Shown here piece by piece: positions 15,132 to 33,008 of a DNA stretch of 64,000 nt. The notes under the pieces are model-generated. The model worked only from the letters and a program-made list of their open reading frames with translations. It had not been told where the DNA came from and ran no database searches. Source of the stretch: Gammaproteobacteria bacterium (GTDB taxonomy: Bacteria > Pseudomonadota > Gammaproteobacteria > Enterobacterales > Alteromonadaceae); assembly GCA_018222405.1 (NCBI GenBank), contig JAAFAI010000003.1:124001-188000 (forward strand), written 5' to 3'. The position numbers and the translations under genes were made by a program. How positions within the stretch are numbered: the stretch's first letter is position 1; the number at the start of each line of letters is the position of its first letter.

Positions 15132-15312
15132 TGTACGAAATATCTTACAAAGCTGTGAGATATTATAGATTCCTACTTATGCTAAAAACGTCGATTGTTT
15201 TTTAAGATTATGAAAAATATGAAATAAAATTGTTCTGGTCAGCTTTGGCCTGCAACGTTGATGCAAAAATATTCAACAGTGGATTAGCGTTCCTCATTCA
15301 TCAGCGTACTAT
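15132..15312 (+). promoter_or_regulatory. GacA/UvrY-type promoter region of sRNA copy 1
   Basis: TGTACGAAATATCTTACA (15132-15149) matches the GacA upstream activating palindrome TGTAAG-N6-CTTACA with one mismatch. After 53 bp comes TAAGATTATGAAAAATAT (15203-15220), an AT-rich box shared with the other two copies and possibly an IHF-type site. A -10-like TACTAT lies at 15307-15312. The palindrome is about 185 bp before the expected transcript start, as in Pseudomonas rsmX/Y/Z. Confidence 0.75.
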
Positions 15313-15318
15313 AAACGT

Positions 15319-15656
15319 GTCACAAGGAAACACGACGAGTCAGGAAGACACACGGATGAACTTGGGATTGCTCAGGATGAGTAAGACAGGGTAAGGAACT
15401 CTGTTTAAGGATAAAGGAGCGGTCGGGAAGGCCGAAAAGGACAACTCCGGATGGAGAATGCTGTAGCAGGATGTACAGCTTAAAATGGAATAATGGAAAG
15501 GGACCTGTTCAGGGAGAACAGCTCACGCAGGATGATGTGAGAAAAGAAGGAAAGGGGCGTATACGGATTTTAATCGGGAAGATTTTAGTCGCAAGGGATC
15601 GCTGAGAAGGAAACTCAAAATTCAGAGAAAACGATGACTTCGGTCATCGTTTTTTT
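15319..15656 (+). ncRNA. CsrB/RsmZ-like CsrA-sequestering sRNA, copy 1
   Basis: A roughly 340-nt RNA predicted from sequence. It contains about 23 GGA triplets by eye, many as AGGA or CAGGAUG in the loops of short hairpins (for example GCTCAGGATGAGT and TGTAGCAGGATGTACA), the arrangement by which CsrB-type RNAs bind and titrate CsrA/RsmA. It shares with E. coli CsrB the string AAGGACAACTCC-GGATGGAGAATG-like block. It ends in a strong terminator with a UUCG loop. The start is inferred from the -10 box and from alignment with copies 2 and 3. No protein frame of any merit lies on its strand. Confidence 0.85.
15628..15656 (+). terminator. terminator of sRNA copy 1
   Basis: AACGATGAC and GTCATCGTT form a 9-bp stem closed by a TTCG tetraloop and followed by seven T residues. 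Confidence 0.93.
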
Positions 15657-15786
15657 ATGCCTGCCGAAAAAACGCCTCGTATTTATAACAGGCCGTCGTC
15701 TCTCATAAAATAGATAAAATCCGGTGTCTAACCCTGCCCGGTTATACTATCATCCCAGTTAAAACTAACCGATATGAATCCTGACC

Positions 15787-16593
15787 ATGGCAGACAGAGC
15801 AAAGACCGCTGAAGTGTATCGCTACCAGACCGTCAGTGCGGATAAACTGGTAGAAGAGAGTGCGCTGCCAACCGAATGTGCCCTGGCTATTAGCTATAAC
15901 GACATCAGTTATGCGGTAATGATGGTAAGCCCCGATGACGTGAAGGATTTTGTGGTTGGATTTAGTCTGACTCAGGGCATTATTGATTCACCGGGCCAGT
16001 TTCGTAGTATCAGCGTGACCTTTGAAGGCGAGCAGGGAGTTGCTGATGTGCAGCTTAGTCCTCGTGCCCAGTGGCAACTAAAGTCTTATCAACGCCGCCT
16101 TGCTGGCAGTTCGGGCTGCGGTATCTGCGGTACGGATGCGCTGAAATCAGCGTTACCTGAGCTTTCCAAATTACCGGATGCGCCCTTGCCTGAGGTGTGC
16201 GCCTTCACCAACCTGCGTCATCGAATCCGTGAATACCAACAGGCTCTGTATTCGGGGGGCGCCCAGCATGCTGCATTTTTTGTGACTAACGATGGCTGTA
16301 TCACGTTGTGCCGTGAAGATATCGGCCGGCACAACGCTATGGACAAACTGATTGGTGCGCTGGCCTTATCCGACACACCCTCAACAAATGGTTTTATGGT
16401 ACTGACCAGCCGTTGCGGGCTGGAGTTGGTGCAAAAGGCTATTCGGGTTGGTCTGCCAACCCTGGTTACCCTGTCTGCGCCTACCACAATGGCTGTGGAG
16501 TGGGCTAAACGGTATCAGCTTAACTTAATCCACTTACCCCACCACAGCGCCCCCAGGGTGTACCACAGTTCCGTTGCTGGCAGTGCAAGCTAA
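15787..16593 (+). CDS. fdhD: formate dehydrogenase sulfurtransferase FdhD
   Basis: A 268-residue FdhD protein, which carries sulfur from the desulfurase IscS to the molybdenum cofactor of formate-dehydrogenase-like enzymes. The catalytic loop GSSGCGICGTDAL holds Cys111 and Cys114. Further family text includes CREDIGRHNAMDKLIGAL and LTSRCGLELVQKAIRVGLPTLVTLSAPT. It is convergent with the molybdoenzyme gene on the other strand, and the two stop codons overlap in the four bases CTAA, so the pair is very likely a functional unit. Confidence 0.96.
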   Translation: MADRAKTAEVYRYQTVSADKLVEESALPTECALAISYNDISYAVMMVSPDDVKDFVVGFSLTQGIIDSPGQFRSISVTFEGEQGVADVQLSPRAQWQLKSYQRRLAGSSGCGICGTDALKSALPELSKLPDAPLPEVCAFTNLRHRIREYQQALYSGGAQHAAFFVTNDGCITLCREDIGRHNAMDKLIGALALSDTPSTNGFMVLTSRCGLELVQKAIRVGLPTLVTLSAPTTMAVEWAKRYQLNLIHLPHHSAPRVYHSSVAGSAS

Positions 16594-18908
16594 TTCTGAG
16601 CAACCGGGATGCGATTATCAGGCTGCGCTTTCATCAGTTTAATCGCAATGTATTTAGAAGTGGGCGTGAATGACTCATCGCCATAGCTCTCCAAAGGCAC
16701 CAGGCCGTTGGCTTCCGGAAAATAAGCGGCGGCCTGACCCTGTGGAATATCGTAAGCCACCAGGGTGAAACCTTTCACTCTACGTTCTCTGTCATCATGC
16801 CACAGGGAAATCATGTCAACCTTTTCGCCTTCGCTAAAGCCCAGCCGGTTAATGTCCTCGGGATTAACGAACACCACATAGCGCTGGCCAAATACGCCCC
16901 GGTAGCGGTCATCAAGGCCATAAACCGTGGTGTTGTACTGATCGTGTGAGCGCAGTGTTTGCAGTATAAGATCCGGCGTTTCTCCGGCAGGTAATTGTGC
17001 AGAGAGTAACTGCCCGGGCAGTGGGTTGGCAGCAAAGCCGGCTTTCTGGTCGGCCGTGCGCCACGTTCTCTCAGATGCCGGGTTAGGTAAGTGAAATCCG
17101 CCCGGTTGGGTTAACTTCTCGTTAAAGCCGGTAAAGCCGGGGATCGTATCGGCAATCAACTCGCGGATGCGGCTATAATCGTTAATTAGCGCGTCCCAGT
17201 CTACCGGGTGATTGCCCAGCACAGCTTTGGCCATACCGGCCACAATGGCTGGCTCTGAACGTAACAGCGCTGAGCCCGGAGGCAGTTGCCCATAGGAAAT
17301 GTGTACCATCGAAAAGGTATCTTCTACCGTCACGCCCTGGGGCTGGCCGTTCTGAATATCGGCTTCGGTGCGACCCAGGCAAGGTAAAATCAGCGCTGCT
17401 TTACCGGTAACTAAATGCGAGCGGTTAAGTTTGGTGCTTACGTGTACCGTAAGGTCGCATTGCTTAAGCGCTGCATGAGTACGCGGTGTGTCCGGGGTGG
17501 CCTGAGCAAAGTTGCCACCCATGCCAATAAAGACTTTAGCGCGCCCCTGTTCCATAGCCTGAATAGCCTGCACCACGTTGTGGCCGGGCTCACGGGGTAC
17601 AGAAAAGTTAAAGCGCTCCTCCAGGGCATCGAGCAACCATTGCGGTGGCTTTTCATCGATCCCCATGGTTCTGTCGCCCTGCACATTACTGTGGCCTCGC
17701 ACCGGCGATAATCCGGCACCCGGTTTACCCACATTGCCGCGCAGCAACTGGACGTTAATAATTTCCTGGATGATAGCAACTGAGTGCTTATGTTGGGTTA
17801 TTCCCATGGCCCAGCACATAATCACTCGCTCAGCCCGGCAATACATGCTGGCCGCCAGGTAAATATCGTCTTTGCTGAGCCCTGACTGTTCAACAATGTC
17901 TTGCCAGGAAGTGGCATCAACCAGAGCCAGATAATCATCAAGGCCGTTGGTATGCCGGGCAATAAAATCGTGATCAAATATCGCCGGACGGTTATTGGCC
18001 TGGGCTTCTCTTTCCCATTCGAGCAGACCTTTGGCAATACCGCGCATGACCGCCATATCGCCGCCTAATGCCGGGCGGAAATAAGCTGTGTTAGTGGGGG
18101 CATCGCCATTGGTTAGCATTTCCAGCGGGTGTTGCGGATGCTGAAAACGTTCCAGGCCGCGCTCTTTCAGCGGATTAAAGCAAACCACCTGAGCGCCTCG
18201 CTCAACGGCCTCCCGTAACGGTTCGAGCATACGAGGATGATTGGTGCCTGGGTTCTGGCCCAATACAAATATCGCATCGGCTTTGGCAAAGTCGTCGAAT
18301 ACCACGGTGCCTTTGCCTACGCCCACCGATTGCTTCATGGCATGGCCACTGGCTTCATGGCACATGTTGGAGCAGTCAGGAAAATTATTAGTACCAAATG
18401 CACGTACAAATAGCTGATACAGGTACGCCGCTTCATTACTGGTGCGCCCGGACGTGTAAAATTCAGCTTGATCGGGACTGGCCAGCTGGTTGAGATGTTG
18501 CGCTATCAATGCAAAGGCATCATCCCAGCTAATCTCAGTATATTTATCCGTTGCCGGATCGTATTGCATAGGGTGGGATAAGCGGCCCTGATCTTCCAGC
18601 CAGTAATCGCTGTGCTCTAAAAGTTTAGATACGGTGTAACGCTCAAAAAATGCTGGCCCTACCTGACGACCTGAGGATTCCCAGTTAACCGCTTTAGCGC
18701 CGTTTTCGCAAAATTTAACCAGGCCATTTTCCGGTGATTCGCCCCAGGCACAGCCCGGGCAATCAAAACCATGGTCCTGATTGGTTTTGAGCATAGCGCG
18801 CAGGTTTTTTAGCGGCTTTTCACTGGCGATCCAGCTTTTGGTGACACTTTTTAATGCACCCCAGCCACCGGCAGGGGCGGTGTATTTCTGAACAGACTTA
18901 TCAGCCAT
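16590..18908 (-). CDS. YdeP/FdhF-like molybdopterin oxidoreductase
   Basis: A 772-residue molybdopterin-dependent oxidoreductase of the Fdh-alpha-like (YdeP) family. The start chosen is the ATG at 18908 after CAGGAAACG; a GTG at 18923 is possible. The N-terminal region has CPGC (50-53) and a further Cys67, fewer ligands than the usual four-cysteine cluster. Cys183 in NMCHEASGHAMKQSVG occupies the position of selenocysteine or cysteine that binds Mo in FdhF. GQNPGTNHPRML, GMGGNFAQATPDTP and a C-terminal cofactor-binding domain with RSHDQYNTTVYG follow. No electron-transfer subunits lie next to it, and substrate is unknown; fdhD next door suggests a sulfurated Mo cofactor as in formate dehydrogenases. 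Confidence 0.92.
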   Translation of the reverse strand: MADKSVQKYTAPAGGWGALKSVTKSWIASEKPLKNLRAMLKTNQDHGFDCPGCAWGESPENGLVKFCENGAKAVNWESSGRQVGPAFFERYTVSKLLEHSDYWLEDQGRLSHPMQYDPATDKYTEISWDDAFALIAQHLNQLASPDQAEFYTSGRTSNEAAYLYQLFVRAFGTNNFPDCSNMCHEASGHAMKQSVGVGKGTVVFDDFAKADAIFVLGQNPGTNHPRMLEPLREAVERGAQVVCFNPLKERGLERFQHPQHPLEMLTNGDAPTNTAYFRPALGGDMAVMRGIAKGLLEWEREAQANNRPAIFDHDFIARHTNGLDDYLALVDATSWQDIVEQSGLSKDDIYLAASMYCRAERVIMCWAMGITQHKHSVAIIQEIINVQLLRGNVGKPGAGLSPVRGHSNVQGDRTMGIDEKPPQWLLDALEERFNFSVPREPGHNVVQAIQAMEQGRAKVFIGMGGNFAQATPDTPRTHAALKQCDLTVHVSTKLNRSHLVTGKAALILPCLGRTEADIQNGQPQGVTVEDTFSMVHISYGQLPPGSALLRSEPAIVAGMAKAVLGNHPVDWDALINDYSRIRELIADTIPGFTGFNEKLTQPGGFHLPNPASERTWRTADQKAGFAANPLPGQLLSAQLPAGETPDLILQTLRSHDQYNTTVYGLDDRYRGVFGQRYVVFVNPEDINRLGFSEGEKVDMISLWHDDRERRVKGFTLVAYDIPQGQAAAYFPEANGLVPLESYGDESFTPTSKYIAIKLMKAQPDNRIPVAQN

Positions 18909-19093
18909 TTCGTTTCCTGACACTGCCAGATATGCCAGGCAGTTTTATTTTTTGCTTTGTCGCACAGTAAAACAGAAGTTGGTGATGTTAAGCAAACGTA
19001 AACCCGTCAGTCCTGTATCTTTTTACGACCAGTGTCATACCCGGCCAGGCAATATGGTACCTGTTGTCTGACGCATAATGGCTGATACCCACT

Positions 19094-19771
19094 TTAATTT
19101 AACTTCATCCAGTGAATTATGATTTTATTAACGCCGATGGTGTACTCAAGATGCAACTGGCCATTGTCTTCGAGATTCATTATCAGTGGCGAACGCACTT
19201 CAGCAGGGATGCTTGGATCGTTGGTTTGTTTAATGGTGAAATAATAGCCTTCATCGGCATGGGAGATCGTGCCCGAATAAAAATACTGTGACATATTGCC
19301 CCACATGTCTGTCGCAACAAATTCCATTCGCCAGGACACGCCGTTAGACGACTTAGCGCTAAAGGTTGAATTGGCTTCCACTGCCATGGAAATATCGACG
19401 CCATTTTGCGTATAGCCCACTAGATACCAGTCACCTTCGGGCTAATACGCAGCAGGCTGCACGGGGATGATGGGTTCTGGCCCGGGACCTGGCCCAGGTC
19501 CGTTGTTTGGATCGGACGCAATATAAGGATTAGGATCCGGGGCATTGGGTAAAAATTTGGGCAATAAGATGAGCCCTATGCCAATGACAACCAGAATGAT
19601 GGAAGGGTTACTGACATTAATTTTGATGCCAAATCCTTCCACATTGCTATTGCGGGAGCCGTCACCCTGTTTACCGGATATAAACAGGTACAGCCCCACT
19701 AAAACCAGGGCTACACCTACTGCAACAATAAAAGTATCGAACGTATCCATCGTTTTCTGTCCCGAGTCCAT
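19094..19771 (-). pseudogene. membrane-anchored hypothetical protein split by in-frame TAG
   Basis: Two reading frames on the minus strand, 19442-19771 (109 residues) and 19094-19441, are in the same phase and are separated only by a TAG codon at 19442-19444. The first half has two hydrophobic segments (TFIVAVGVALVLVGLYLFIS and IILVVIGIGLILLPKFL) and a Pro/Gly linker (NNGPGPGPGPEP). The text continues PAAY-stop-PEGDWYLVGYTQNG into a compact beta-rich domain. The joined protein, anchor plus linker plus exported domain, makes better sense than two genes, and the second half lacks its own good ribosome site (first start is GTG at 19420). No family recognised. It could be a real nonsense allele or a base-call error. 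Confidence 0.65.
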
Positions 19772-19896
19772 CGGTAATAAGCGAGATTGCGTGAGACAAT
19801 ATCTGTCTGCGAAGCAAAATATAGCTCATTGGTTAATAAATAACCATCCCGATGGCGCTAACTGAGTGGCTGAAACTCTGTTCGATGAATACCTTG

Positions 19897-20904
19897 TTAT
19901 ATCGCCGGCGACCTGATGTGCATAGAACCTACTGCCTCTATAGCCTGTAATACCAGGGCTTGCTCGAAAATGGGAAATGACAGGATCACCTCATCCACGC
20001 CGAATGCTGCTACAAACCGATTAAGCTGCTCTTCCGCTGCAGCTTTATCACCCACCAGAGCGTAGCGCAACGTACTGTTGATACTGCGGATTTCCATTTC
20101 GTTAAGCTCCAGGCGGATGTCCTCCACAGGTGGTGGCATGGGCTTGTTGGCGTTACGACGCAGGTTAGCGAATTGTTGCTGAACCGAGGTAAATAACTGT
20201 TTAGCGTGGTCTTCACTATCGCCGATAACCGCCATGACACCCGCCGATACATAAGGCTCGGCCAGTTGCGCCGAGGGTTTAAAGTTTGCCCGGTAGATAC
20301 TAATGGCATCACCGAGCATATCGGGCGCGAAGTGCGATGCAAAAGAAAACGGCAATCCCATATGGGCTGCCAGTTGAGCCGAATATAAACTGGAACCGAG
20401 TAACCAAATTGGCACATTAGTGCCGGCGCCGGGTACAGCAATAGGCTTTTGGCCTTCTTCAGGTGTGCCAAGCAGGCGCTGAAGTTCGGCGACATCCTCT
20501 GGATAGCGCTCGGCATCGCCCTGTATATCGCGGCGCAGCGCACGGGCGGTAGCCATATCAGTGCCCGGCGCGCGGCCTAACCCTAAATCTATCCGGTCAG
20601 GATAAAGCTCGGCAAGCGTGCCAAATTGTTCGGCAATCACCAGTGGCGCATGATTGGGCAGCATGACGCCACCAGAGCCAATACGAATACGGTTGGTAAC
20701 CGCGCCCACACTGGATAACAAAACCGCCGTCGCGGCACTGGCCACAGCTCGCATACCATGGTGTTCAGCCAGCCAGTAACGGGTAAACCCGGCCTGCTCA
20801 GCGGTTTGCGCGATGGCCTGACTGCGCAGTAGGGCGTCGCGTACGGAACTGCCTTGGGCGACATGGGCGAGGTCGAGAATCGACAGGGGCAAGGATTCAG
20901 TCAT
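19897..20904 (-). CDS. LLM-class flavin-dependent oxidoreductase (YhbW-like)
   Basis: A 335-residue luciferase-like TIM-barrel flavoprotein of the YhbW group. Text typical of the family includes [60 protein letters not shown] and [13 protein letters not shown]. The start is the ATG at 20904 ([10 protein letters not shown]) after ACAGGTATTTTC; a longer frame adds nine unlikely residues. Substrate is unknown for this group. It stands alone. Confidence 0.93.
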
Positions 20905-21029
20905 GAAAATACCTGTTAGTTTGCATACCAAGTATTATTGGGATGACGCAGCGGATCAAAAGGGCGATTCGACTAGCTGCATAACATCGCGTTAGTTTTC
21001 AATTGAAATTACTCGAATTGGCGTGGCAG

Positions 21030-22949
21030 TCATAAAGCACAAGTTTCTGTCGGGTAAACAGCATTATCTTCATCACTGGCCAATGAAGGGAAAGCATCGA
21101 CGATGTTGTCATAGGTTTGGCGAAACCTGAGCTTTAGCAACAGCATCTGGTTAAGGTGTGCCTTGGTGATAGTGGGCTGATAGCTCATTAAATGTGAAAC
21201 GATTTCATACGCGTTTTGCGCCTGTCCTCTAGTGGCGACAAAGTAAAGCGCCTGATAGAGCGGATCGGGTGCATCATCGGGTTGATAATAAGGCACGTTT
21301 TGCTCTACCAGAAATGTCAGGGCTTCCAGATTCATCGCCTGAATCGCAGTAAATAGCAGGCTGCGACCGTAGCGGTCTAACGTATGCAGATCAAACCCTG
21401 ATTCATGTAATTCATGCAGGGTTGAGGCAGAAAGGCCCCGGGTAATCCCGTCATCAAAAAATAGATAATTTAATTCGTCTGGCATGAGGCCCAGACTAAC
21501 TAGAGAAGGATATGTCTCAGGTAGTTCTGCCAGTGCAGTATGAGTAAAAAGTTGTAATAATTCAGGGTCGTTACTTATTGTAGAGGCGGTAAGAGAGTAA
21601 TTGCCGTTTTTCCATAAAATCCTGGCACGCAGGTATCCAGGGGTATTTTTATTCTCACCCTTTTTCTCCTCATAATTGGCCGCGGAACGTCTGCAACTGA
21701 CTAATTCAGGAGCACGATTAAATAACGCTTTATCTGTTTCCTCAGACTCACTTACGTCTATAACTTCAGGTTTCCAATATTGTTTTACGTTGGCTTGATA
21801 ATCTTTACATTGTGCTCGTTTCTTATTGGCTGTGGTATAGCCGTTATCGCTAACATAGGCCTGCTGCTGAGCTGATAACTCATCCATCAGTTGCGTTGTT
21901 TTTGCAGTTTTGGAAGGCAGACTTGTCTTCGGTATGGCGAAAAGGCTATAACCATAGTGTTCCATTAGGTAAGAGACACCCTCAGGTGTAAAAAAGTAGG
22001 ACGGGTATTCGGAGTTGTTAACAAAATAACCGTCTTCGGAGGGAGCAACAGTGGCCTGCTGCCCAAGTCCGATCAGATAGTCAGTAAAAGCCAACTGCCG
22101 AATGACATCTTCAGACTTGCCTCCTGTCCCCTTCATTCCCACCATTTGGTGCAGGCGATCCAGAGCGAAATCCATAGGACCACCAATAAAGGGATCAGAT
22201 TGTAACGAAACACCTTGTTTTATGAGCCAGCGGGCCAGATCATTGCGGCCAAACAAGATGGCAGCGTCCAGAATATTTAGCATCCCAAGGCCATGCTCAT
22301 TTCCAAGTGATGCGTTTATATCGTCCAGTGCTAAGGCAAATTGCTTTATGGTGTCATCGCCAATGGATTTGTTCTCTATTAACATCGCAACATCATCGGG
22401 GAGTAACGCGTCAGGGAGTGTTCCTGTGGGCACTTCGCCTGCGCGAGCCTTTTTTGACACCCAGCGTTTACGCTCGTCGCTCCTGAACGGACTTTTGTTA
22501 AGCCAGCTTTTGTTGTGTGACTCTATTTGCTCACCGTAGATTTTATTGGCCTGATTAATGGGGCTGAATCGTTTGCGATAAGTATCCCGCCACTTTGCAG
22601 CCCTTAACGGGTTATCCAGAGATATTATTGCTAATGTAATATCGTCAACGGAATAGCCTTTATCCAGATAAGGCGTTAAGTCGGCTTGTTCGAAATATTT
22701 ACTTTTTGTGCGATTTAAGTCGTAGCGAAATTGCACACATCGGTTGGCTGTGGGGATAAATGTTTCTTCAGGCGTGTTATCAGCCTGAGTAGCGGGTAGC
22801 GCATTTTCCAGTGGGGACATATCACTGGCACCCTGGCTGGTAGCACCGTCAGTAGGAATAGCAGGATTATCAACTGGCTCCATTGTGGCATAAAACCAAA
22901 GTCCACTGGCGACCAGCGCTACGCCTATTACAACAACCATTCTTCGCAC
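21030..22949 (-). CDS. hypothetical protein with N-terminal anchor and ankyrin-like segments
   Basis: A 639-residue protein of unknown function. An N-terminal hydrophobic stretch (VVVIGVALVASGLWFYATM) suggests a signal anchor, followed by a low-complexity acidic linker. Two stretches look like degenerate ankyrin pairs: LNILDAAILFGRNDLARWLI near residue 225 and RYGRSLLFTAIQAMNLEALT near 530. Start is GTG at 22949 or ATG at 22940, neither with a strong ribosome site. It is monocistronic. The protein would face the periplasm; no enzymatic motif is visible. Confidence 0.7.
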   Translation of the reverse strand: MRRMVVVIGVALVASGLWFYATMEPVDNPAIPTDGATSQGASDMSPLENALPATQADNTPEETFIPTANRCVQFRYDLNRTKSKYFEQADLTPYLDKGYSVDDITLAIISLDNPLRAAKWRDTYRKRFSPINQANKIYGEQIESHNKSWLNKSPFRSDERKRWVSKKARAGEVPTGTLPDALLPDDVAMLIENKSIGDDTIKQFALALDDINASLGNEHGLGMLNILDAAILFGRNDLARWLIKQGVSLQSDPFIGGPMDFALDRLHQMVGMKGTGGKSEDVIRQLAFTDYLIGLGQQATVAPSEDGYFVNNSEYPSYFFTPEGVSYLMEHYGYSLFAIPKTSLPSKTAKTTQLMDELSAQQQAYVSDNGYTTANKKRAQCKDYQANVKQYWKPEVIDVSESEETDKALFNRAPELVSCRRSAANYEEKKGENKNTPGYLRARILWKNGNYSLTASTISNDPELLQLFTHTALAELPETYPSLVSLGLMPDELNYLFFDDGITRGLSASTLHELHESGFDLHTLDRYGRSLLFTAIQAMNLEALTFLVEQNVPYYQPDDAPDPLYQALYFVATRGQAQNAYEIVSHLMSYQPTITKAHLNQMLLLKLRFRQTYDNIVDAFPSLASDEDNAVYPTETCAL

Positions 22950-23199
22950 GGATAATCCCTGTCACATGAGTTTTTGTTCTTATTATTTGTAACGTTATCA
23001 AGAGATTAGGCTGTATTTGAAGTGCCTGTTTCCGGTATCTGGTAATGATTCTGTTAAGCGTCGGCGTTAACTTTTGCCCTGACAAGTGAATCAGATTGAT
23101 TGAATCGCGAAGCAAAATCCCTTAAGTTGTAATGCTGCGCTAATTTTACCGCACTAACTGCCCCCGGCAGTTCTTAACATCAATCCTGATAGGTAAAAT

Positions 23200-24009
23200 A
23201 TGAAATATCCAAGCACCCTACCCACAGCACATCAGCAGCTGTTAACCGACATTATTCGTATTTTTTCGGGCGATAAGCGCGTAAACGCAATCGGCGCGAG
23301 TGGTTCGTTCGCTAGCAATCAGATGGATCAGTACAGTGATTTGGATCTGGTTATCGCCATTGAACCGGCGTTTATAGATGAAGTGATGGCTGAGCGGTTT
23401 AAACTGGTAAACGCTGTACCGGGTTACATTGAAGGCTTTACCGGTGAGCATGTGGGGGAGCCGAGACTGATTATTGCTCTGTATGAGTTACCTCACAGTT
23501 ACCCGTCGCTCGTACACGTTGATTTTAAATTTGTATCGCTAACGGATGCCGCACAGCGAGTCGATGACACTCAGGTTATCTGGGAGCGTTCATCATCGCT
23601 TTCAGACATTTATGCCTGCACTGAGTACGCGTACCCGCAACCGGATTGTCAGTGGGTAGAGGACCGCTTCTGGATTTGGGTACACTACGGTGCGGGTAAA
23701 ATTGCCCGGGGCGAATACTTTGAGGCACTGGAGTTTTTGTCTTTTCTACGTACTGTGGTGTTATCGCCGCTGGCGTTACAACAGGCCGGACTGACTCCAT
23801 CGGGCGTGCGTACTATCGAAAAACGTCTGCCAGCATTTGCCGCTGAGCTTAAACAAACGATTGCTACGGCTGAAAGAGATACCCTGATCCCAGCCTTCGA
23901 AGCCTGCATTGCTCTGTATATCCGCTTACGGGATAAAACAACCGCAAAAGTTAATGGCAGAGCCCAGCAGTTGGCCATCAGTTATTTTAATGATGAGCTT
24001 AAGGCCTGA
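23200..24009 (+). CDS. nucleotidyltransferase, aminoglycoside adenylyltransferase-like
   Basis: A 269-residue protein with a minimal nucleotidyltransferase core: GASGSFASNQMDQYSDLDLVI (about 33-53) has the GS-x10-DxD arrangement that binds nucleotide and two metal ions. A third acidic residue lies in VHVDFKFVSL near 108. The C-terminal half is helical with no familiar motif. The nearest well-known relatives are streptomycin-type adenylyltransferases, but the substrate cannot be told from sequence and resistance should not be assumed. A hairpin follows the stop. Confidence 0.75.
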   Translation: MKYPSTLPTAHQQLLTDIIRIFSGDKRVNAIGASGSFASNQMDQYSDLDLVIAIEPAFIDEVMAERFKLVNAVPGYIEGFTGEHVGEPRLIIALYELPHSYPSLVHVDFKFVSLTDAAQRVDDTQVIWERSSSLSDIYACTEYAYPQPDCQWVEDRFWIWVHYGAGKIARGEYFEALEFLSFLRTVVLSPLALQQAGLTPSGVRTIEKRLPAFAAELKQTIATAERDTLIPAFEACIALYIRLRDKTTAKVNGRAQQLAISYFNDELKA

Positions 24010-24018
24010 CTGACCAAC

Positions 24019-24158: not shown

Positions 24159-24716
24159 ATGAGCAAGATCCTGATGATCACGGGTGATTTTGTTGAAGAC
24201 TATGAAAACATGGTGCCATTTCAAACTCTGCTGGCCTGTGGCCATCAGGTTGATGCGGTGTGTCCGGATAAATCGGCAGGGGATACCATTAAAACGGCAA
24301 TTCACGATTTTGAAGGCGATCAGACTTACACTGAAAAACCGGGCCATAACTTTACGTTAAATGCCACTTTTGCTGATGTTAAGGCCGAAGATTATGATGG
24401 GCTGTATATTCCCGGCGGCCGGGCGCCAGAATACCTGCGATTAAATGCGGATGTCATTGCGTTGGTAACAGCGTTTTTTACGGCGGATAAACCGGTTAGC
24501 TCGATTTGTCATGGGCCCCAATTACTGGCTGCGGCCGGTGTGCTGGAGGGCAAGCAAGTGTCTGCCTACCCGGCGTGCGAGCCGGAAATTAAACTGGCAG
24601 GGGCCACTTATGTTGCCGTGAATATGGATGAAGCCATCACCGATGGTAAGCTGGTGACGGGCCCGGCCTGGCCGGCTCACCCGGCTCTGTTGAGTCAGTT
24701 TATGGCGTTGCTTTAA
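24159..24716 (+). CDS. DJ-1/PfpI family protein
   Basis: A 185-residue DJ-1/PfpI superfamily protein starting [20 protein letters not shown] at the ATG at 24159, preceded by CGAGGTAAC. The nucleophile elbow [14 protein letters not shown] has the conserved Cys followed by His, and [16 protein letters not shown] supplies the oxyanion region. Such proteins act as glyoxalases, deglycases, or proteases in different members; the exact activity is not decided here. A second family member lies at 27551. Confidence 0.9.
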
Positions 24717-24737
24717 GTAAAGTAGAGGGAGAAGTCT

Positions 24738-25142
24738 GTGTGTGGATTATTTATTAATGCCGACCCGTCTTTATGGACGAGTACTACCCGTTCATTGCGA
24801 ATAGACGGCGTGGTGACCTCCATCCGCATGGAGACATTTTTCTGGAATGTGCTGCAGGAAATCGCCAGCCGGGACGAACTGAGCGTGAGCCAGTTAATTT
24901 CAAAATTGTATCTGGAGTCACTCGATGCCGACCATGACGTTGGCAACTTCACTTCGTTTCTGCGGGTTTGCTGCGGCCGTTATCTTTCTATGATTTCCGA
25001 TGGCTATCTTAAGCGAGATGCGCTTGAGCCTCTCAGTGATATTGATTCAGATCGTGTGATTAAACAGGAAGCCGATTCAATGGCGATACGACTGAAGCAA
25101 CTGCCTGAGCAGCAAGCAGCCCGACAAGGCAATAAACATTAG
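24738..25142 (+). CDS. ribbon-helix-helix domain protein (RHH_4 type)
   Basis: A 134-residue protein. Residues 1-75 carry the ribbon-helix-helix domain of the RHH_4 type: MCGLFINADPSLW, then RSLRIDGVVTSIRMETFFWN, then LSVSQLISKLYLES and NFTSFLRVCCGRYLS. The start is GTG at 24738 behind AGAGGGAGAAG. Members are small predicted DNA-binding proteins often annotated near aryl-sulfate enzymes; the target is unknown. Its stop overlaps that of the convergent Lrp gene. Confidence 0.82.
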   Translation: MCGLFINADPSLWTSTTRSLRIDGVVTSIRMETFFWNVLQEIASRDELSVSQLISKLYLESLDADHDVGNFTSFLRVCCGRYLSMISDGYLKRDALEPLSDIDSDRVIKQEADSMAIRLKQLPEQQAARQGNKH

Positions 25143-25603
25143 CGGGCCGCTTTTTTGATATTTATCTGCGGCAGCCGGGGCTCGAACAACGATGATTTAA
25201 CGATAGAGGTGTTGGTATCGGCACATTCGTGCAACGGAAACATAATGTCATCGAGTTCGGCGACATCCTGCAAGGCCAGGCGTGCAATTAAGCAGTCCTC
25301 ACCGGTTACCCGATCGCAGGCCATAAAGCGGGGCTCATCGCTAATCAGCTTTTCCACTTTTCTTATCTGCCCCGACTTCGGCTTTATTCTTACCAGCGCC
25401 TGAATGCTGTAACCCAGTGCGCGCATATCCAACCTAACGCCAAAACCATCGATAACGCCTTTATGTCGCAACGCTTTCATTCGCTCACCAACGGCGGGGC
25501 CCGATAAGCCTACCGCTTTACCTATTTCTGCCAGACTCAGCCGGGCATTGTTATCCAGCACAGTTAAAATGGCTTTATCGAGGTGGTCAATCTGCTTTGT
25601 CAT
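25139..25603 (-). CDS. Lrp/AsnC family transcriptional regulator
   Basis: A 154-residue regulator. The N-terminal winged helix-turn-helix reads IDHLDKAILTVLDNNARLSLAEIGKAVGLSGPAVGERMKAL, and the C-terminal RAM ligand domain includes ECADTNTSIVKSSLFEPR. It is divergent from the PhzF gene with a 156-bp AT-rich gap, so it may control that gene and itself, probably in response to an amino acid. Ligand unknown. Confidence 0.93.
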   Translation of the reverse strand: MTKQIDHLDKAILTVLDNNARLSLAEIGKAVGLSGPAVGERMKALRHKGVIDGFGVRLDMRALGYSIQALVRIKPKSGQIRKVEKLISDEPRFMACDRVTGEDCLIARLALQDVAELDDIMFPLHECADTNTSIVKSSLFEPRLPQINIKKAAR

Positions 25604-25759
25604 AACTGATTTTTAAAATGAAGGTTATTTATTATAATTTACCTATATATGAAAGGAAAAAGCTAGAAAAGGCTTATTGAATAGCAATGAAAAGAGAGTG
25701 TAGCCAGTGATATTCTATAAAAACTATCAGCCCGTTAATTTACCGCATAAGGAACAGTT

Positions 25760-26596
25760 ATGAACGTACAACGCATTGCCGCATTCAGCGATGGCAACAA
25801 AGGTGGTAACCCCGCCGGGGTGGTGTTACTTAAAGACCCAATGACAGAAAGTGAAATGCGCAGCATTGCAGCTGAGGTGGGGTATTCAGAAACCGCTTTT
25901 GCTTATCCTCTTGCAGAAGATGAATCAGCCTGGCGGGTACGTTATTTTTCGCCCGAATCCGAGGTGCCATTTTGCGGCCATGCCACCATAGCGCTTGGCG
26001 CAGCGTTAGGTGAACATGCAGGAGCAGGGGAGTATAAACTCACAATCAACAGCGCTGAAATAGCCGTTAATACAATACAAACCGAACAAGGCGTTGCGGC
26101 TACGCTTACTTCACCACCAACTCATAGTCGGCCGGTTACCAGTGATGAGCTCACAAAGGCGCTTAACCTCTTCGGCCTTTCTGAGCAGGATCTCGATGAA
26201 CAATTACCACCGGCATATATTCATGGTGGTTCAAACCACATAGTTTTGCCGCTGCAAAGCAGGCAAACTCTGGCCAGCATGGCGTATTCCCTGACGGCAG
26301 GCAAAGTCGTAATGGAAGCGCTGGAGCTGGTAACCATTATGCTGGTGTATATTGAGAGTCCCCAGGTGTTTGTGGTCAGAAACGCTTTTGCCTCGGGTGG
26401 CGTTATTGAAGACCCGGCCACAGGCGCTGCAGCGGCTGCCTTTGCCGGTTATCTGCGAGATGCAAAATGGCCCCACAACGGCCAGTTTACTATCCGTCAG
26501 GGCGAAGATATGGGAGCTCCTTCGGTGATCAGGGTTAGCCTGTCTGAGGACAAAGGCAGCCCTGTGTCTGTGTCTGGAACCACTCGTCCAATTTAA
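25760..26596 (+). CDS. PhzF family isomerase/epimerase
   Basis: A 278-residue PhzF-like protein with the family features GNPAGVVLL near the N-terminus, VGYSETAFAYP holding the active glutamate, FSPESEVPFCGHATIALG, and EDPATGAAAAAFAGYLR in the C-terminal half. PhzF itself isomerises trans-2,3-dihydro-3-hydroxyanthranilate, but no phenazine genes are near, so this is one of the many relatives of unknown substrate. The divergent Lrp regulator suggests amino-acid-linked control. Confidence 0.9.
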   Translation: MNVQRIAAFSDGNKGGNPAGVVLLKDPMTESEMRSIAAEVGYSETAFAYPLAEDESAWRVRYFSPESEVPFCGHATIALGAALGEHAGAGEYKLTINSAEIAVNTIQTEQGVAATLTSPPTHSRPVTSDELTKALNLFGLSEQDLDEQLPPAYIHGGSNHIVLPLQSRQTLASMAYSLTAGKVVMEALELVTIMLVYIESPQVFVVRNAFASGGVIEDPATGAAAAAFAGYLRDAKWPHNGQFTIRQGEDMGAPSVIRVSLSEDKGSPVSVSGTTRPI

Positions 26597-26699
26597 CGGG
26601 CAGTAAAAAGGTAAATTGGCAGGATATAAAGCCAGATAACTATTGACCTGAAATATGCTTGAAGTTTTACGATGGCTTTAGTCAATCTCTGACTGTCAG

Positions 26700-27239
26700 C
26701 TAAACCCTCCTGCTGAGGCGCGGTAACATCCTTTTTAGCGTAGCATCTTTTAGTATAAAGTGATGATAAAGGGCAGCAGTGCCATGCAGCCCAACGAGCC
26801 CATAGCCGGTTTTTGCCATCAGAATATGAATCTGAGATAACTCTTCCGCCATAACGCTGTCTGGTGAGGCTATTTGTGGCAGTTGCCAGCCAAAAGCTGA
26901 AACTGATACATCCCACAAACCAATATCCACCCAACCAATTATTGGTAAGGTGATCATAAGGCCATATAGCAGTATGAAAACCGCCCTCGCCACAGACTTT
27001 TGCACGTGTCCATGATCGGGCTTTTCAATCGGCTCACTGCGCGACCACAACCACAACCTGATGACTGCCAATATAAGGATGATCAGACCTAACAGGTAAT
27101 GCGTGGATAACATCAGTGTCCGACCACTGCTACCTTTTGGGTAAAGGCTGATAAATTCCATCGATAAACAGACAATAACCAGCATTACGGCCATCAGCCA
27201 GTGCAACCAAATTACAACCGGACGATAGTGAGGTGCCAT
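26700..27239 (-). CDS. cytochrome b561 family protein
   Basis: A 179-residue four-helix di-heme cytochrome b561. The chosen start (MAPHYRPVVIWLHWLMAVML, ATG at 27239) has GGAAGACAGAAG as ribosome site; longer starts exist. Heme-binding histidines appear in each outer helix: WLHWLM (helix 1), STHYLLGLIIL (helix 2), HILMAKTGYGLVGLHGTAALYHHF (helix 4). Homologues pass electrons from quinol to periplasmic oxygen species. Monocistronic. Confidence 0.92.
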   Translation of the reverse strand: MAPHYRPVVIWLHWLMAVMLVIVCLSMEFISLYPKGSSGRTLMLSTHYLLGLIILILAVIRLWLWSRSEPIEKPDHGHVQKSVARAVFILLYGLMITLPIIGWVDIGLWDVSVSAFGWQLPQIASPDSVMAEELSQIHILMAKTGYGLVGLHGTAALYHHFILKDATLKRMLPRLSRRV

Positions 27240-27550
27240 TTTCTTCTGTCTTCCAAAGCCAATGTTGTGTAAAGCCATGCGGTTATTATGCGATGTTACG
27301 CACAGCATAAGGTGCTATTTTGCTACCGGATACCCGCATAAACTGAATTCGATTAGTGCCTGATTACTCAAATGGCCTGGCCCTGTAAGTCCTTCACACT
27401 GGCTGCAAAACTTTCCTCCAGAGACTGCTACACAAACGAATGAATTTTTAATTTTTATTTGAGATCAGTTATTTATGTGTTTGGAATGGATGTTGCTGCA
27501 GTGTCGGTCATGCAAAACTTTAAAACCAGCTTGTCACAGGAGCGTTTAAT
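27240..27550. other. intergenic region, no gene seen
   Basis: About 310 bp between the divergent cytochrome b561 and PfpI genes. I see no coding frame or RNA. The AT-rich stretch around 27435-27475 probably holds the PfpI-gene promoter. Confidence 0.45.
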
Positions 27551-28102
27551 ATGAGCAATCAATTTAATTTAAAAGGTAAAAAGATAGCGATTCTGGCAAC
27601 CAGTGGCTTTGAGCAGAGTGAATTAATTAAACCCAAAGAAATGCTTGCTGAGCAGGGCGCTGAGATAGACGTCCTTTCTATTGACGATCAGACCTCAATA
27701 ACGGGTTGGGACCAGGAACAATGGGGTGAGGAAGTAGCCGTTGATAAACAGGTTACCGCCGCTGCGCCAGGCGATTACGACGCGGTAGTGTTGCCGGGCG
27801 GTCAGATTAACCCGGATATTCTGCGTAACAATGAACAGGCCGTTTCTTTTATTAAACGCGCACACGCTGAAACCCGCGTAAGGGCAATTGGTGCAATTTG
27901 CCATGGTCCCTGGTTACTCATCGAATCAGAATTAGCCCGGGACAGCAAAGTTACGTCGTTTCCAAGTATTAAAACCGATTTACTTAACGCCGGTGCCGCC
28001 TGGGAAGACAACGAGGTTGTTCACGACGGTAAACTCGTAACCAGTAGAAACCCTGACGACATCCCCGCGTTTGTCGGCAAGATCAGTGAACTGGTAGCGT
28101 AA
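27551..28102 (+). CDS. DJ-1/PfpI family stress protein (YraA/YhbO-like)
   Basis: A 183-residue PfpI-type protein. It has KKIAILATSGFEQSEL at the start, YDAVVLPGGQINPD, and the elbow AIGAICHGPWLLIES with its conserved Cys-His pair; the end TSRNPDDIPAFVGKISEL matches general stress protein 18/YhbO types. These proteins protect against carbonyl or oxidative damage. An SDR gene follows after 25 bp and is probably cotranscribed. Confidence 0.93.
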   Translation: MSNQFNLKGKKIAILATSGFEQSELIKPKEMLAEQGAEIDVLSIDDQTSITGWDQEQWGEEVAVDKQVTAAAPGDYDAVVLPGGQINPDILRNNEQAVSFIKRAHAETRVRAIGAICHGPWLLIESELARDSKVTSFPSIKTDLLNAGAAWEDNEVVHDGKLVTSRNPDDIPAFVGKISELVA

Positions 28103-28127
28103 TCAGAATTAGCAGGCAGGAGTCATA

Positions 28128-28829
28128 ATGTCAGTAACTCAAGAATCCAAAGCAAAAGTTATCGCCATTACCGGCGCATCAAGCGGCATCGGTGAGGCAA
28201 CGGCACGGGCGTTGGTGGCAAACGGCTATCACGTTGCCTTGCTGGCCAGACGTCAGGATAAGCTTAAGGCGTTGGTTAGTGAACTAGGCCAAGACAAAGC
28301 CTATGCAGTAAAAGCGGATGTCAGCGACTTTGATACGTTAAGCAGTGCATTTGCAGACATCCATAGCAAATTTGGCAGCATAGACGGTGTCTTTGCCAAT
28401 GCCGGTACCGGCGTAAACTCTCCGGGCGTGGCAGAGGGCGACGTTAACGAGTGGTCTACTATGTTAGGGGCTAACGTTAATGGCTTGCTCTATACGGCTA
28501 AGGCCAGTCTGCCTTATCTGAAAGACAGTGAAGGGCACTTTCTGTTAACCAGTTCTGCAGCCGGTCGCATGACATTGAAGGGCTCGGTATATGGTGCTAC
28601 CAAATGGTTTGCCTACGGGTTTGGCATGAACCTGGCGGAGGAAATGCGTGAGTGGGGCGGCAAGTGCACCACCATCTGCCCGGGCATGGTTAATACACCA
28701 TTTTTTGATGAACCGAAAGACGGCAAAATTGCGCCAGAAGACATTGCTGAGGCTGCGCTTTATGCGCTGTCGAGCAGCAAAACAGCCTGTGTCAGAGAAG
28801 TATTTGTTATGCCTGCTGATAAACCATAA
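28128..28829 (+). CDS. short-chain dehydrogenase/reductase
   Basis: A 233-residue classical SDR. The Rossmann cofactor loop is ITGASSGIGEAT (TGxxxGIG), NAGTG follows near residue 88, the catalytic Ser is in LTSSAAGRM, and Tyr-Lys are in VYGATKWFAYG. The PGMVNTPFF strand closes the site. The basic residue in ARRQDK after strand 2 suggests NADP preference. Substrate unknown; the PfpI gene upstream hints at aldehyde or carbonyl metabolism. Confidence 0.92.
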   Translation: MSVTQESKAKVIAITGASSGIGEATARALVANGYHVALLARRQDKLKALVSELGQDKAYAVKADVSDFDTLSSAFADIHSKFGSIDGVFANAGTGVNSPGVAEGDVNEWSTMLGANVNGLLYTAKASLPYLKDSEGHFLLTSSAAGRMTLKGSVYGATKWFAYGFGMNLAEEMREWGGKCTTICPGMVNTPFFDEPKDGKIAPEDIAEAALYALSSSKTACVREVFVMPADKP

Positions 28830-28869
28830 CGTAAGACCGGGCTTCGGGTGACAAAGACTACCGTTATCG

Positions 28870-29049
28870 TGTAAGACATTTCCTACAAAAGTGTACGAAT
28901 AAGCGGTTTGTTTTACCCGGCCTTGCCTTACACTTTTGGTTAAGATTATGAAAAATATAGAGTATTAAATCTGTAACAGATGAGAAGAATGAGAATCAGG
29001 TGGTCTTGTGTAATCCACCGGTGGCAGGTTTTTCTCAGAAGCGTATTCT
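28870..29049 (+). promoter_or_regulatory. GacA/UvrY-type promoter region of sRNA copy 2
   Basis: TGTAAGACATTTCCTACA (28870-28887) matches TGTAAG-N6-CTTACA with one mismatch. Exactly 53 bp later lies TAAGATTATGAAAAATAT (28941-28958), identical to the box of copy 1. A -10-like TATTCT lies at 29044-29049. Spacing agrees with the other two copies to within a base. Confidence 0.78.
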
Positions 29050-29055
29050 AATCAT

Positions 29056-29500
29056 GTCGCAAGGATAAGTGACCCGTCAGGAAGACGAGCTTTCAGGATG
29101 AAAGTAGCCAGGAAGACATAAACCAGGAAGGCACCTATCAGGAAGATAGCGCGCAGGAAGCGGCAAAAGGAACACGCGTCAGGATGACGATGTCAGGAAG
29201 ATAAACGGAATCCGGTTTAATGGAATAAACCAATAGGATTTAAGGAAGAGGCTGGGATGCCAGCAGGAATGGAATAAGCCAGGACGGCAAAGGACAACTC
29301 CAGGAGCGGAGATTACTTTACAGGATGTAAAGTTTAAACGGAAAAATGGAAAGGGAAACACCACGGACAAGGTGGGCTGCTGCAAAGCAGATAAGAAGGA
29401 TTTGCGTGCGGAGTTTCAGGTAACCCCCGAAATTGCACTAGCGCAGAGAAGGAGTTCTAAATTCCAGAAGAAAACGGTGGCTCAGGCCACCGTTTTTTTT
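29056..29500 (+). ncRNA. CsrB/RsmZ-like CsrA-sequestering sRNA, copy 2
   Basis: About 445 nt, with roughly 29 GGA triplets by eye, most as CAGGAAG or CAGGATG. Many sit in small hairpin loops, for example CTTTCAGGATGAAAG, CTATCAGGAAGATAG, GCGCAGGAAGCGG and TTTACAGGATGTAAA. This is the CsrB/RsmZ pattern of multiple CsrA-binding loops. It is close in sequence to copy 3, with which it brackets the broken sulfatase gene, and more distantly to copy 1. The start is inferred; the end is the terminator at 29471-29500. Confidence 0.88.
29471..29500 (+). terminator. terminator of sRNA copy 2
   Basis: AAACGGTGGC and GCCACCGTTT form a 10-bp stem around TCAG, followed by eight T residues. Confidence 0.93.
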
Positions 29501-29533
29501 CCAATCAGTTATTCCGCAAACATCACAATTTCA

Positions 29534-31753
29534 TTATTTCTCGCTTAAGAGCCGGCCAGGAAGTGCCATTTGGCTGATACCTATTCGGCGACCCCAGACT
29601 ATCATCAGTAATACGATCAACTGCCAGAATCCTACAGTACCGCCTCCCGATGAGTTACTAGTGGTGTTATCAACAACAGCGGCAGGTGCACTTACGCTAA
29701 AAGTAAAATCAGTTGACTGTTGCGACGTGCCATCTGAAACAGTAAACGTTAACGTTACAGAGTCACCCGTAAAATCTGCCGGGATCATAACGTCATAAGA
29801 GCCTTGAAGTGGCGGCGGTGTTAATTCAGATTCAGGTAAAGTACTCGAACTGACCGCTAACGTTAATGGCTCCCGGTTTTTATCTGCTGTTGTAATGTTT
29901 AACTCAATAGACTTCCCTTTCTCGACCGAAGGCGTGTCAGAGGTCACATTAACCGTTGGCGCTGATGCGACAGGTTCAATAAAAACAGCCACATGCTTCA
30001 CTGAAGTATTTACTGAATCATTAGCAACAAAGCCTAATGTGATAATTGTCTCGGTATAAACTGTTGGGCCGGTAATGAGCAGAGTGCCGGGTTCTGTTTG
30101 TTGAAGCTCAACTTGCGGTCCGGTTACCTGCCTGTAATTAATGGAAGCATTGTTGCTATCATCCTCTACATAAAAGCGGATTGAGGTTTGCTGACCTTCT
30201 GAAATTCGCTGCTCAGATGCATAGGCTGTAATTTGAGGCGGGGCGTTGTTCGCATCAACAACAGGGAGACGCCAGTGTTCTGCGGGATTGCTGATAGAAG
30301 AATAATCAAAGGTACCAGGCCGGTAATTAGGGTTTGCTATTGGAACTACTGCATTGGCTTCATCTAAATGTTGTTGTATCAACAGATCTAATTCATGAAC
30401 TTTAGTGGGATATTCAGCCGCCAGGTTGGTGGTTTCCCCAACATCATTTTTAAGATCATATAAATAATATAAGTGCCTCTCGGATTGGCCATATTCGAAA
30501 CTTCGAATTAGCTTCCAGCCGTCATATTGCACGGTGACCGACGGTGGCAGCCAGTCAGGCACTACTGCATTAACCGGGAAAAAGTTAATTAATGGGCGCG
30601 GATCAGGCGAATTACCTGTAAAGGTATTACTAATGTCCTGACCGTCTATGGTTGACTGTGAAGGGAGCGGGATACCCAGTCCCTCAAGCAGTGTAGGCAT
30701 GAAGTCTACCGATTGAATAGGCACTGACGATATTGAATTAGGTGTCGTTTTTCCTGGCCAGCTGATAATGGTAGGGACACGAATTCCGCCATCAAAGTCA
30801 GTTGCTTTGCCACCGCGTAATGGAAAATTATTGGTGGCGCGAATATTACCGAGCACACTGTACATATTCCCGCCATTATCAGAGCTGAAAATAATAATGG
30901 TGTCTTCAGTTAAATTTAATTCTTCCAGCTTATCCAGCAATGTGCCTATCGCGTTATCAAAATGCTTGACCATAGCAGCGTAAACGACACTGCGTTGAAT
31001 ATTATAGGGTGAGCGTTTGTCTACAAAATGCGCCACCAGATCGGGATCGGCATTGAAGGGTGAATGAACGGAGAAGGCCCAGAAATTCAGGTAAAAAGGA
31101 CCATCCTGGCTTACTTCAGCCATCCAGTTACCCGCTTCTGTGGCTAAACGCTCATCGATATGCTCGCCGCGGGTCTGAGGTTGTAGATTTGGTGCAAAAT
31201 CCCATGGTGCTAAAAAACCGCCTGTCGGGCCTGCACCATCAAAATGTGGAATATCAATATCAAAACCATGCTCAAGCGGGCTGTATGGACTTGCTCACAA
31301 ATGCCATTTACCGAAATGTGCAGTCTGATACCCATGTTGTTTTAATACAGATGAAAGGGTAGGAATGGACGTATCCAGACGGGTAACCGTGTGCGGCGCA
31401 ATTGACATTCTATTGCTGGGAGCCGAATTTGGCAGATCTGCAACCAACCTTACATTATCCAAATGATGCAATGGCTGGATTGAGCCGTGTCTGGCGGGTG
31501 TCTGTCCGGTTAAAATTGATGCCCTGTTTGGTGAACAAAGTGGGTTGTTTGTATAGGAATGAGTATAAAGCATCCCCTGTTCGGCTAGTCTTTCCAGGTT
31601 AGGGGTTTCTAAAAACTGGTCGTTGCCAAACAATGTTGTGTCATTCCACCCCAGATCATCAGCAAGGATCACAATCACATTTTTAGGCTCTGCGTGAGCC
31701 AGATGAGTAACAATAAGGGCGAGAAAGATAACGCCGTGCTTCCATTTTGACAT
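29534..31753 (-). pseudogene. secreted type-I sulfatase with in-frame TGA
   Basis: One minus-strand frame of 740 codons encodes a sulfatase, interrupted by TGA at 31295-31297 (codon 153). The first part has a signal peptide (MSKWKHGVIFLALIVTHLAHA), metal ligands in ILADDLGWND, and the formylglycine motif CSPNR (Cys73). It ends HFGKWHL; the family continues with Gly, so GGA to TGA is the simplest cause. After the stop the same phase reads ASPYSPLEHGFD, and from 31123 includes SSDNGG and FDGGIRVPTIISWPG. The C-terminus has an Ig-like region and SSGGGTVGFWQ, then a hydrophobic segment and WGRR, a GlyGly-CTERM-like sorting tail. Active enzyme needs both parts, so the allele is probably inactive unless the stop is read through or is a base error. 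Confidence 0.85.
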
Positions 31754-32082
31754 TTACGTTTCTAAATTTAAAACTATATTGATTTCAGCCGTATCCGTAT
31801 ATAGTTGCAAGGTTATTAGTAAAGCTCTCAGTTATGATCATTTTTGCGGGGTGGCCTGCGCCGATGTGGCCTAAAGAAGAATGCTCTATGTTAATGAATG
31901 TGATAGCAGTGATTTACTGTCATAGTAATTCATGGATGCAGTGTTGGGCACATCGATCAGGTGGAGAATAAAGCAGTAGTAAGCGCTATGACGCTCGTAT
32001 CAATTTGAACCTGCTTCGAGTCTCCTCACGAAGCAAAATTCCCACAACTATTTGAGGCCAAATAGCTTCTGGCCGGCATCTT
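31754..32082. other. intergenic region, no gene seen
   Basis: About 330 bp upstream of the sulfatase start and before the promoter of sRNA copy 3. No coding frame or known RNA is evident; it should contain the minus-strand sulfatase promoter. Confidence 0.45.
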
Positions 32083-32262
32083 TGTAAGACATTTCCTACA
32101 CAAGTGTACGAATAGACGGTTTGTTTCGCCTGCCCACGCCTTACACTTTTGGCTAAGTGTATGAAAAATATAAGCTATCATACTTCCTACACATTGAGCC
32201 GCGACGATTACGCCAACTTTATGTGATTCAACGGTGGCAGGTTTTTCTCAGAGGCGTACTCT
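32083..32262 (+). promoter_or_regulatory. GacA/UvrY-type promoter region of sRNA copy 3
   Basis: TGTAAGACATTTCCTACA (32083-32100) is identical to the site of copy 2. TAAGTGTATGAAAAATAT (32154-32171) follows after exactly 53 bp and differs from the other two copies at two positions. A -10-like TACTCT lies at 32257-32262. Confidence 0.78.
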
Positions 32263-32268
32263 GTACAT

Positions 32269-32681
32269 GTCGCAAGGAGATGTGACCCGTCAGGAAGACA
32301 ACAGCTAGGAAGGTATTAATCAGGAAGATTACGCTAGGAAAGGCAACAGGATTTTCGTCAGGATGACGATGTCAGGAAGACAAACGGAATCCGGTTTAAA
32401 GGAATAAACCATCAGGATTTAAGGAAGAGGCTGGGATGCCATCAGGAATGGAATAAGTCAGGACGGCTTAGGACAACTCCAGGAAGGGAGAATACTTTAC
32501 AGGATGTAAAGATTTTTACGGAAAATGGAAAGGGATACGCCTAAGGACAGGTGGTCTGCTGTGAAGCAGAGTAAGAAGGAATTGCGTGCGGGATTATAAG
32601 CCATGCTTAAAATTGCACTAACGCTGAGAGGGAGTCTCAAAATTCCAGAGAAAACGGTGGCTAAAGCCACCGTTTTTTTTT
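32269..32681 (+). ncRNA. CsrB/RsmZ-like CsrA-sequestering sRNA, copy 3
   Basis: About 413 nt with roughly 27 GGA triplets by eye, largely as CAGGAAG, TAGGAAG and CAGGATG in hairpin loops such as CGTCAGGATGACG and TTTACAGGATGTAAA. It is similar to copy 2 along nearly its whole length but is about 30 nt shorter, chiefly in the 5' third where copy 2 has extra loop units. Same CsrA-titrating role predicted. It ends 10 bp before the stop codon of the convergent DUF3301 gene. Confidence 0.88.
32651..32681 (+). terminator. terminator of sRNA copy 3
   Basis: AAACGGTGGC and GCCACCGTTT pair around TAAA, then nine T residues. Same stem as copy 2 with a changed loop. Confidence 0.93.
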
Positions 32682-33002: not shown

Positions 33003-33008
33003 CGGGTC

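Follow-up and report, generated by a model that had tools for sequence, protein, structure and literature searches.

CsrB is a well-known kind of bacterial RNA that sequesters the regulator CsrA. For Escherichia coli csrB, Zere and colleagues (PMC4682653) place UvrY binding at a repeat at −183/−182, with a partial repeat 5 bp downstream, and report that CsrB is about tenfold lower in cells without IHF, csrC being IHF independent. CsrB-like small RNAs (sRNAs) are already known for Alteromonas: Hou and colleagues (PMC5864184) describe Aln1a-c of Alteromonas macleodii Te101 as counterparts of CsrB/C, with three starts in a 404-bp intergenic region, many A(N)GGA motifs in open regions, and very high expression. 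Duplication of csrB has been described in Vibrio, species of which carry two to four copies (PMC6262261). A search of the published literature on csrB with yqcC/truC, on Alteromonadales, and on the prediction of CsrA-regulating RNAs returned no further description of csrB for Alteromonadaceae.

The window (i.e., the whole 64,000-nucleotide stretch of DNA that was analyzed) very probably contains three csrB genes with UvrY-type repeats and a probable IHF site, belonging to a lineage in which the gene was duplicated. Like E. coli K-12 csrB (NC_000913.3, 2924156 to 2924524), the window copies specify GGA-rich noncoding RNAs starting with GTC. The two loci share the yqcC-truC-yqcA neighbors and the order of the promoter parts, in which an inverted repeat some 190 bp upstream is closely followed by a half-site and, before the promoter, by an IHF consensus. 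They differ in that E. coli has one csrB at the locus, whereas the window has two there and a third 14 kb away; the IHF match follows the repeat by 68 to 71 bp with the full consensus in E. coli and by 53 bp in the window; the half-site follows by 5 bp and 4 bp, respectively; and in the window, unlike in E. coli, csrB is separated from yqcC by genes for DUF3301 and DUF3549. The window copies resemble Aln1a-c in being CsrB/C-like sRNAs of Alteromonas, but they are three separate genes over 17 kb, whereas Aln1a-c are three sRNAs of a single 404-bp region (PMC5864184). Multiple copies, as in the window, are also found in other families: Shewanella oneidensis has csrB1 and csrB2 with UvrY-type boxes, a pair described in PMC3171408 as close together with a transposase gene between them (the window copies are likewise separated by genes), and csrB1 to csrB4 are described for Vibrio tasmaniensis (PMC6262261). 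The features of the window are as follows, the −10 elements being candidates called from sequence only.

15132 to 15149, plus strand: UvrY/GacA-type inverted repeat of copy 1, one mismatch; half-site TGTGAG at 15154 to 15159
15203 to 15220, plus strand: AT box of copy 1, IHF-like, 7 of 9 consensus positions
15307 to 15312, plus strand: possible −10 element TACTAT of copy 1
15319 to 15656, plus strand: csrB copy 1 (type A), 23 GGA, terminator at 15631 to 15656; 5′ end predicted from homology to E. coli csrB
28870 to 28887, plus strand: UvrY/GacA-type inverted repeat of copy 2, one mismatch; half-site TGTACG at 28892 to 28897
28941 to 28958, plus strand: AT box of copy 2, IHF-like, 7 of 9
29044 to 29049, plus strand: possible −10 element TATTCT of copy 2
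29056 to 29500, plus strand: csrB copy 2 (type B1), 29 GGA, terminator at 29474 to 29500
32083 to 32100, plus strand: UvrY/GacA-type inverted repeat of copy 3, one mismatch; half-site TGTACG at 32105 to 32110
32154 to 32171, plus strand: AT box of copy 3, two changes, IHF-like, 7 of 9
32257 to 32262, plus strand: possible −10 element TACTCT of copy 3
32269 to 32681, plus strand: csrB copy 3 (type B2), 27 GGA, terminator at 32654 to 32681
32691 to 34124, minus strand: genes adjoining csrB, DUF3301 (32691 to 33002) and DUF3549 (33009 to 34124)
34116 to 35643, plus strand: YqcC-like DUF446 (34116 to 34445), TruC (34438 to 35178), and flavodoxin (35194 to 35643), a group that also flanks E. coli csrB

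The three noncoding, GGA-crowded regions with a shared promoter layout are real. An earlier reading of the DNA from its sequence alone (the sequence-only reading) had counted about 23, 29, and 27 GGA triplets in them, and these counts proved exact; no open reading frame (ORF) of at least 80 amino acids overlaps the regions on either strand. Copies 1, 2, and 3 measure 338, 445, and 413 nucleotides (nt), and 11, 19, and 18 of their GGA triplets, respectively, are AGGA. The plus strand averages 4.8 GGA per 400 nt, the copies peak at 24, 28, and 27, and the richest 400-nt segment outside the three regions on either strand of the window holds 14. Dinucleotide shuffles (40 per RNA) had means of 15 to 16 GGA and maxima of 20 to 22, against 23, 29, and 27 in the real RNAs. 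The strong terminators of the sequence-only reading were also recovered, each of the three copies ending in a hairpin with a T run.

The 5′ signature common to the copies occurred in 67 stretches of a named genome collection, 63 of which were assigned to Alteromonas, Paraglaciecola, Aliiglaciecola, Aestuariibacter, Neptunicella, Marisediminitalea, or Alteromonadaceae bacterium. The other four matches (L041, L048, L083, and L088), from unrelated bacteria with neither the repeat nor the GGA density, were rejected as chance. A GGA-dense RNA followed the signature in 61 of the 63 related loci, and the remaining two matches lay at the edge of the locus sequence. The related loci, the window, and genome loci together gave 86 distinct RNA copies; our script found a terminator in 66 of them, including the three of the window, and none in the other 20.

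Folding was predicted for the 64 copies that had a terminator found and were shorter than 700 nt, and in all 64 the GGA triplets were more open than other G residues. The mean unpaired probability for G of GGA was 0.77, 0.71, and 0.68 in copies 1, 2, and 3, compared with 0.32, 0.27, and 0.27 for other G. The GGA triplets had been said to sit in hairpin loops; they are mostly unpaired, but only 9 of 23, 8 of 29, and 7 of 27 lie wholly within hairpin loops of the minimum-energy fold, so that this description is right for part of them. The same hairpin-loop fractions were reached by 0, 3, and 3 of the 40 shuffles, respectively. With 23 to 29 mostly unpaired GGA triplets on offer, each RNA would bind several CsrA dimers; the csrB RNAs would thereby lower free CsrA and release its mRNA targets.

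The upstream architecture anticipated by the sequence-only reading largely held. The repeats starting at 15132, 28870, and 32083 each have one mismatch to the GacA/UvrY-type palindrome TGTAAG-N6-CTTACA, the gap from repeat to box is 53 bp in all three copies, and the 18-bp box is identical in copies 1 and 2 with two changes in copy 3, all as claimed. The palindrome-to-start distance of about 185 bp came out at 187, 186, and 186 bp in copies 1, 2, and 3 (repeat start to RNA start), and the interval between the end of the box and the first AAGGA, given as 103 to 104 bp, was corrected to 103, 102, and 102 bp. Across the family, a repeat with up to three mismatches lies 170 to 195 bp upstream in 85 of the 86 copies, the remaining copy being without upstream sequence. 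Promoter statistics were drawn from 69 nonredundant promoters (less than 80% alike). A half-site (at least 5 of the 6 letters of TGTAAG) stands 4 bp past the repeat in 49 of the 69, and other offsets from 0 to 11 give 0 to 6 each.

The AT box is a local form of an IHF-like site. With at least 7 of 9 positions agreeing, the IHF consensus, which we take to be WATCAANNNNTTR, stood 52 to 54 bp after the repeat in 55 of the 69 promoters (at least 8 positions in 27 promoters and all 9 in 2) and was absent at that spacing from the remaining 14. Three-position windows outside the neighborhood of 52 to 54 bp contained at most 12 such matches. The exact 18-bp box was rejected as a family-wide element; it is conserved solely among close relatives. 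The suggestion that IHF binds at the AT box thus stood for the IHF-like consensus, which keeps the same spacing family-wide, and not for the 18-bp box itself, and we consider that IHF probably acts there. It is unlikely, albeit conceivable, that the genes are csrB genes in which a protein other than IHF occupies the AT box, or in which the box is no more than a curved AT-rich stretch, with no role for IHF. The boxes of the window match at just 7 of 9 positions, and E. coli csrC needs no IHF (PMC4682653), but the 55 promoters at a fixed spacing compare with a mean of 5.1 and a maximum of 11 under local letter shuffling (300 trials), the genome encodes both IHF subunits, and E. coli csrB has a full IHF match between its repeat and promoter.

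Taking IHF as a probable participant, we infer that the three csrB genes are transcribed, that their RNAs bind CsrA, and that UvrY and IHF control them. Genes for CsrA, UvrY, IhfA, IhfB, and HU-beta are encoded in the genome, with matches above curated cutoffs, and UvrY is 212 amino acids long with no internal stop. Phosphorylated UvrY would bind the inverted repeat and its half-site, some 180 bp upstream, and switch csrB on, and IHF would bend the DNA at the AT box, 53 bp beyond the repeat, letting UvrY reach RNA polymerase. Transcription would start from the GTC(A/G)CA end at a sigma-70-like promoter. Because the UvrY and IHF-like sites keep a fixed order, the IHF step can be tested beyond enteric bacteria and pseudomonads.

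Copy 3 lies in the csrB locus. The gene order there is csrB, DUF3301, DUF3549, yqcC, truC, and flavodoxin, and that of E. coli is csrB followed by yqcC, truC, and yqcA. DUF3301 accompanies csrB in 40 of the 63 related loci, in 35 of which YqcC or TruC is present too; the neighbors sought were absent from the examined stretch in 15 of the 63. Copy 1 is flanked by hupE and fdhD, copy 2 lies behind an SDR gene, and the two positions are found again in A. oceani and A. alba. A sulfatase gene between copies 2 and 3 is represented by two ORFs on the minus strand (29534 to 31123 and 31295 to 31753), both of which match arylsulfatase models and both of which are also found beside the B copies in the loci of four relatives.

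A covariance model built from the last 130 nt of 25 sequences (R1) found csrB in all 59 Alteromonas genomes searched, with scores of at least 51.9 bits; the next matches scored at most 35.0 bits. With a line at 50 bits and tallying by hand, 47 of these genomes have one copy, 7 have two, and 5, including that of the window, have three. Three copies had been called unusual, and this is true within Alteromonas (5 of 59 genomes) and not of gammaproteobacteria at large, since Vibrio species have two to four (PMC6262261). In the genome of the window, R1 gave three strong places, and BLAST revealed no csrB beyond the three copies. The 18-bp box occurs there at 11 places with up to three mismatches; three are the csrB copies, and five of the other eight, which were inspected, are not GGA rich. 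The genome has 13 repeats with no more than one mismatch, and only the three of csrB are set in GGA-rich DNA.

In a midpoint-rooted tree of 63 copies, a single branch (support, 100/100) set the ten B rows apart, and the multicopy lineage's A copies clustered as a group of 11 (97/91). The second copies of two genomes (G040 and G068), which have an A-like 5′ end, were left out of the tree. Copy 2 was placed with the B copies of A. alba and A. oceani (100/100) and copy 3 with the other A. alba copy (97/73), from which B1 and B2 look older than the species split. The two B copies of A. lipolytica, about 660 bp apart, are each other's nearest relatives, which reflects either a separate duplication or conversion. 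The copies would have arisen by duplication at the csrB locus beside yqcC-truC, first into A and B and then of B into B1 and B2, other genes having since come to lie between them. The array of the window is an ordinary csrB system within a duplicated lineage. It is quite improbable that activity is confined to one or two of the three copies, the others being duplicates in the course of loss. Three copies are carried by 5 of the 59 genomes of the genus against 47 with one, and the levels of Shewanella csrB1 and csrB2 are 3- to 10-fold apart (PMC3171408), but all three window copies retain the repeat, box, start, GGA triplets, and terminator, and B1 and B2 copies are maintained across species of the lineage.

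By comparison with Rfam, copy 1 matched CsrB with 38.6 bits (E value, 5.6e-9), copy 3 matched it with 50.9 bits (E value, 4.9e-12), and copy 2 matched CsrB over its first part with 33.4 bits (E value, 9.8e-7) and CsrC over the rest with 25.8 bits. The gathering score of CsrB (RF00018) is 71 bits, so the window copies are not formal members of that family, even though the E values are significant; no Rfam family reached its gathering score within the three regions. Covariance searching thus supported a CsrB identity for all three copies by E value and not by gathering score. A gathering-score scan of 18 of the 63 related loci likewise gave no match, and RF00018 searched at E values of up to 0.1 had matches in 7 of 16 genomes tried, none above the cutoff and one weak and partial. 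BLAST with copy 2 found it in 6 of 40 genomes, the window's own included. Annotation resting on the curated Rfam score may therefore omit csrB here, as it is missed in the window and in all 18 loci scanned, and RNAs so omitted may be the main CsrA antagonists of these bacteria. The only gathering-score Rfam match in the window is a t44 RNA (RF00127) at 42244 to 42348 (55.6 bits).

Among the candidate families, RsmX, RsmY, and RsmZ (PrrB) were rejected, as CsrB is the best clan match of copies 1 and 3 and of the opening part of copy 2, and CsrC that of its remainder. The regions had been called CsrB/RsmZ-like; the CsrB half of that label was borne out by the clan match, 5′ end, and gene neighborhood, all of which fit csrB better than RsmZ, and the RsmZ half was dropped. 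The 3′ part of copy 1 also matched PhrS, but at 25.3 bits, below the threshold of 37, and this match was discounted. The assignment to csrB is by place and by sequence, given the position of copy 3 in the csrB locus and the CsrB matches. The three regions are best read, by a wide margin, as genes for CsrA-sequestering sRNAs, CsrA binding being predicted from the sequence. Scores below the Rfam gathering score would suit the reading that there is no RNA gene here and that the GGA enrichment is due to chance or to a decayed coding repeat, but this is extremely improbable, given a GGA density far above background with no ORF of at least 80 amino acids, csrB in 59 of 59 genomes of the genus, and terminator pairs preserved through changes on both sides.

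The csrB genes of the genus also differ in length, which we measured between predicted ends, with the 5′ signature as the start and the terminator or the limit of the model match as the finish. In single-copy genomes, csrB spans 389 to 835 nt (median, 555 nt; 39 of 47 genomes measured). The 11 A copies measured in multicopy genomes span 333 to 343 nt, and the 16 other copies span 332 to 447 nt, save one outlier of 774 nt. The summed length per genome is 675 to 739 nt in six two-copy genomes and 1,028 to 1,196 nt in four three-copy genomes. The contrast in length may represent a single evolutionary event, since the A copies of the multicopy genomes group together in the tree. As a tentative proposal, which we hold to be possible rather than probable, the CsrA-sequestering capacity of Alteromonas lineages may have grown from that of a single short csrB in two ways, by duplication of a short RNA to two or three copies (A copies of 333 to 343 nt) or by lengthening of a single RNA (389 to 835 nt, with up to 53 GGA). 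If this is true, selection would act on the total GGA per genome and not on gene number, and Aln1a-c of A. macleodii would be pieces of one long csrB and not three genes. Genomes of the genus allow one long csrB gene to be compared, as a natural experiment, with several short ones under one promoter layout.

In one single-copy genome (G051), csrB is 628 nt long at about 1.020 Mb, and csrA is at 1.180 Mb. A 93-amino-acid antisense ORF lies inside this csrB (L166:1440-2106) and ends 385 nt before DUF3301, a distance close to the 404 bp of the Aln1a-c region. If a similar antisense ORF is annotated in Te101, Aln1a-c may be the 3′ part of one csrB with a predicted start at GTCACAAGG. The longest csrB seen in the genus is the single copy at L116 (genome G009), with 835 nt and 53 GGA. 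One B copy (L043:5619-6391) is 773 nt long yet has just 28 GGA, from which its terminator may have been missed, changed, or interrupted.
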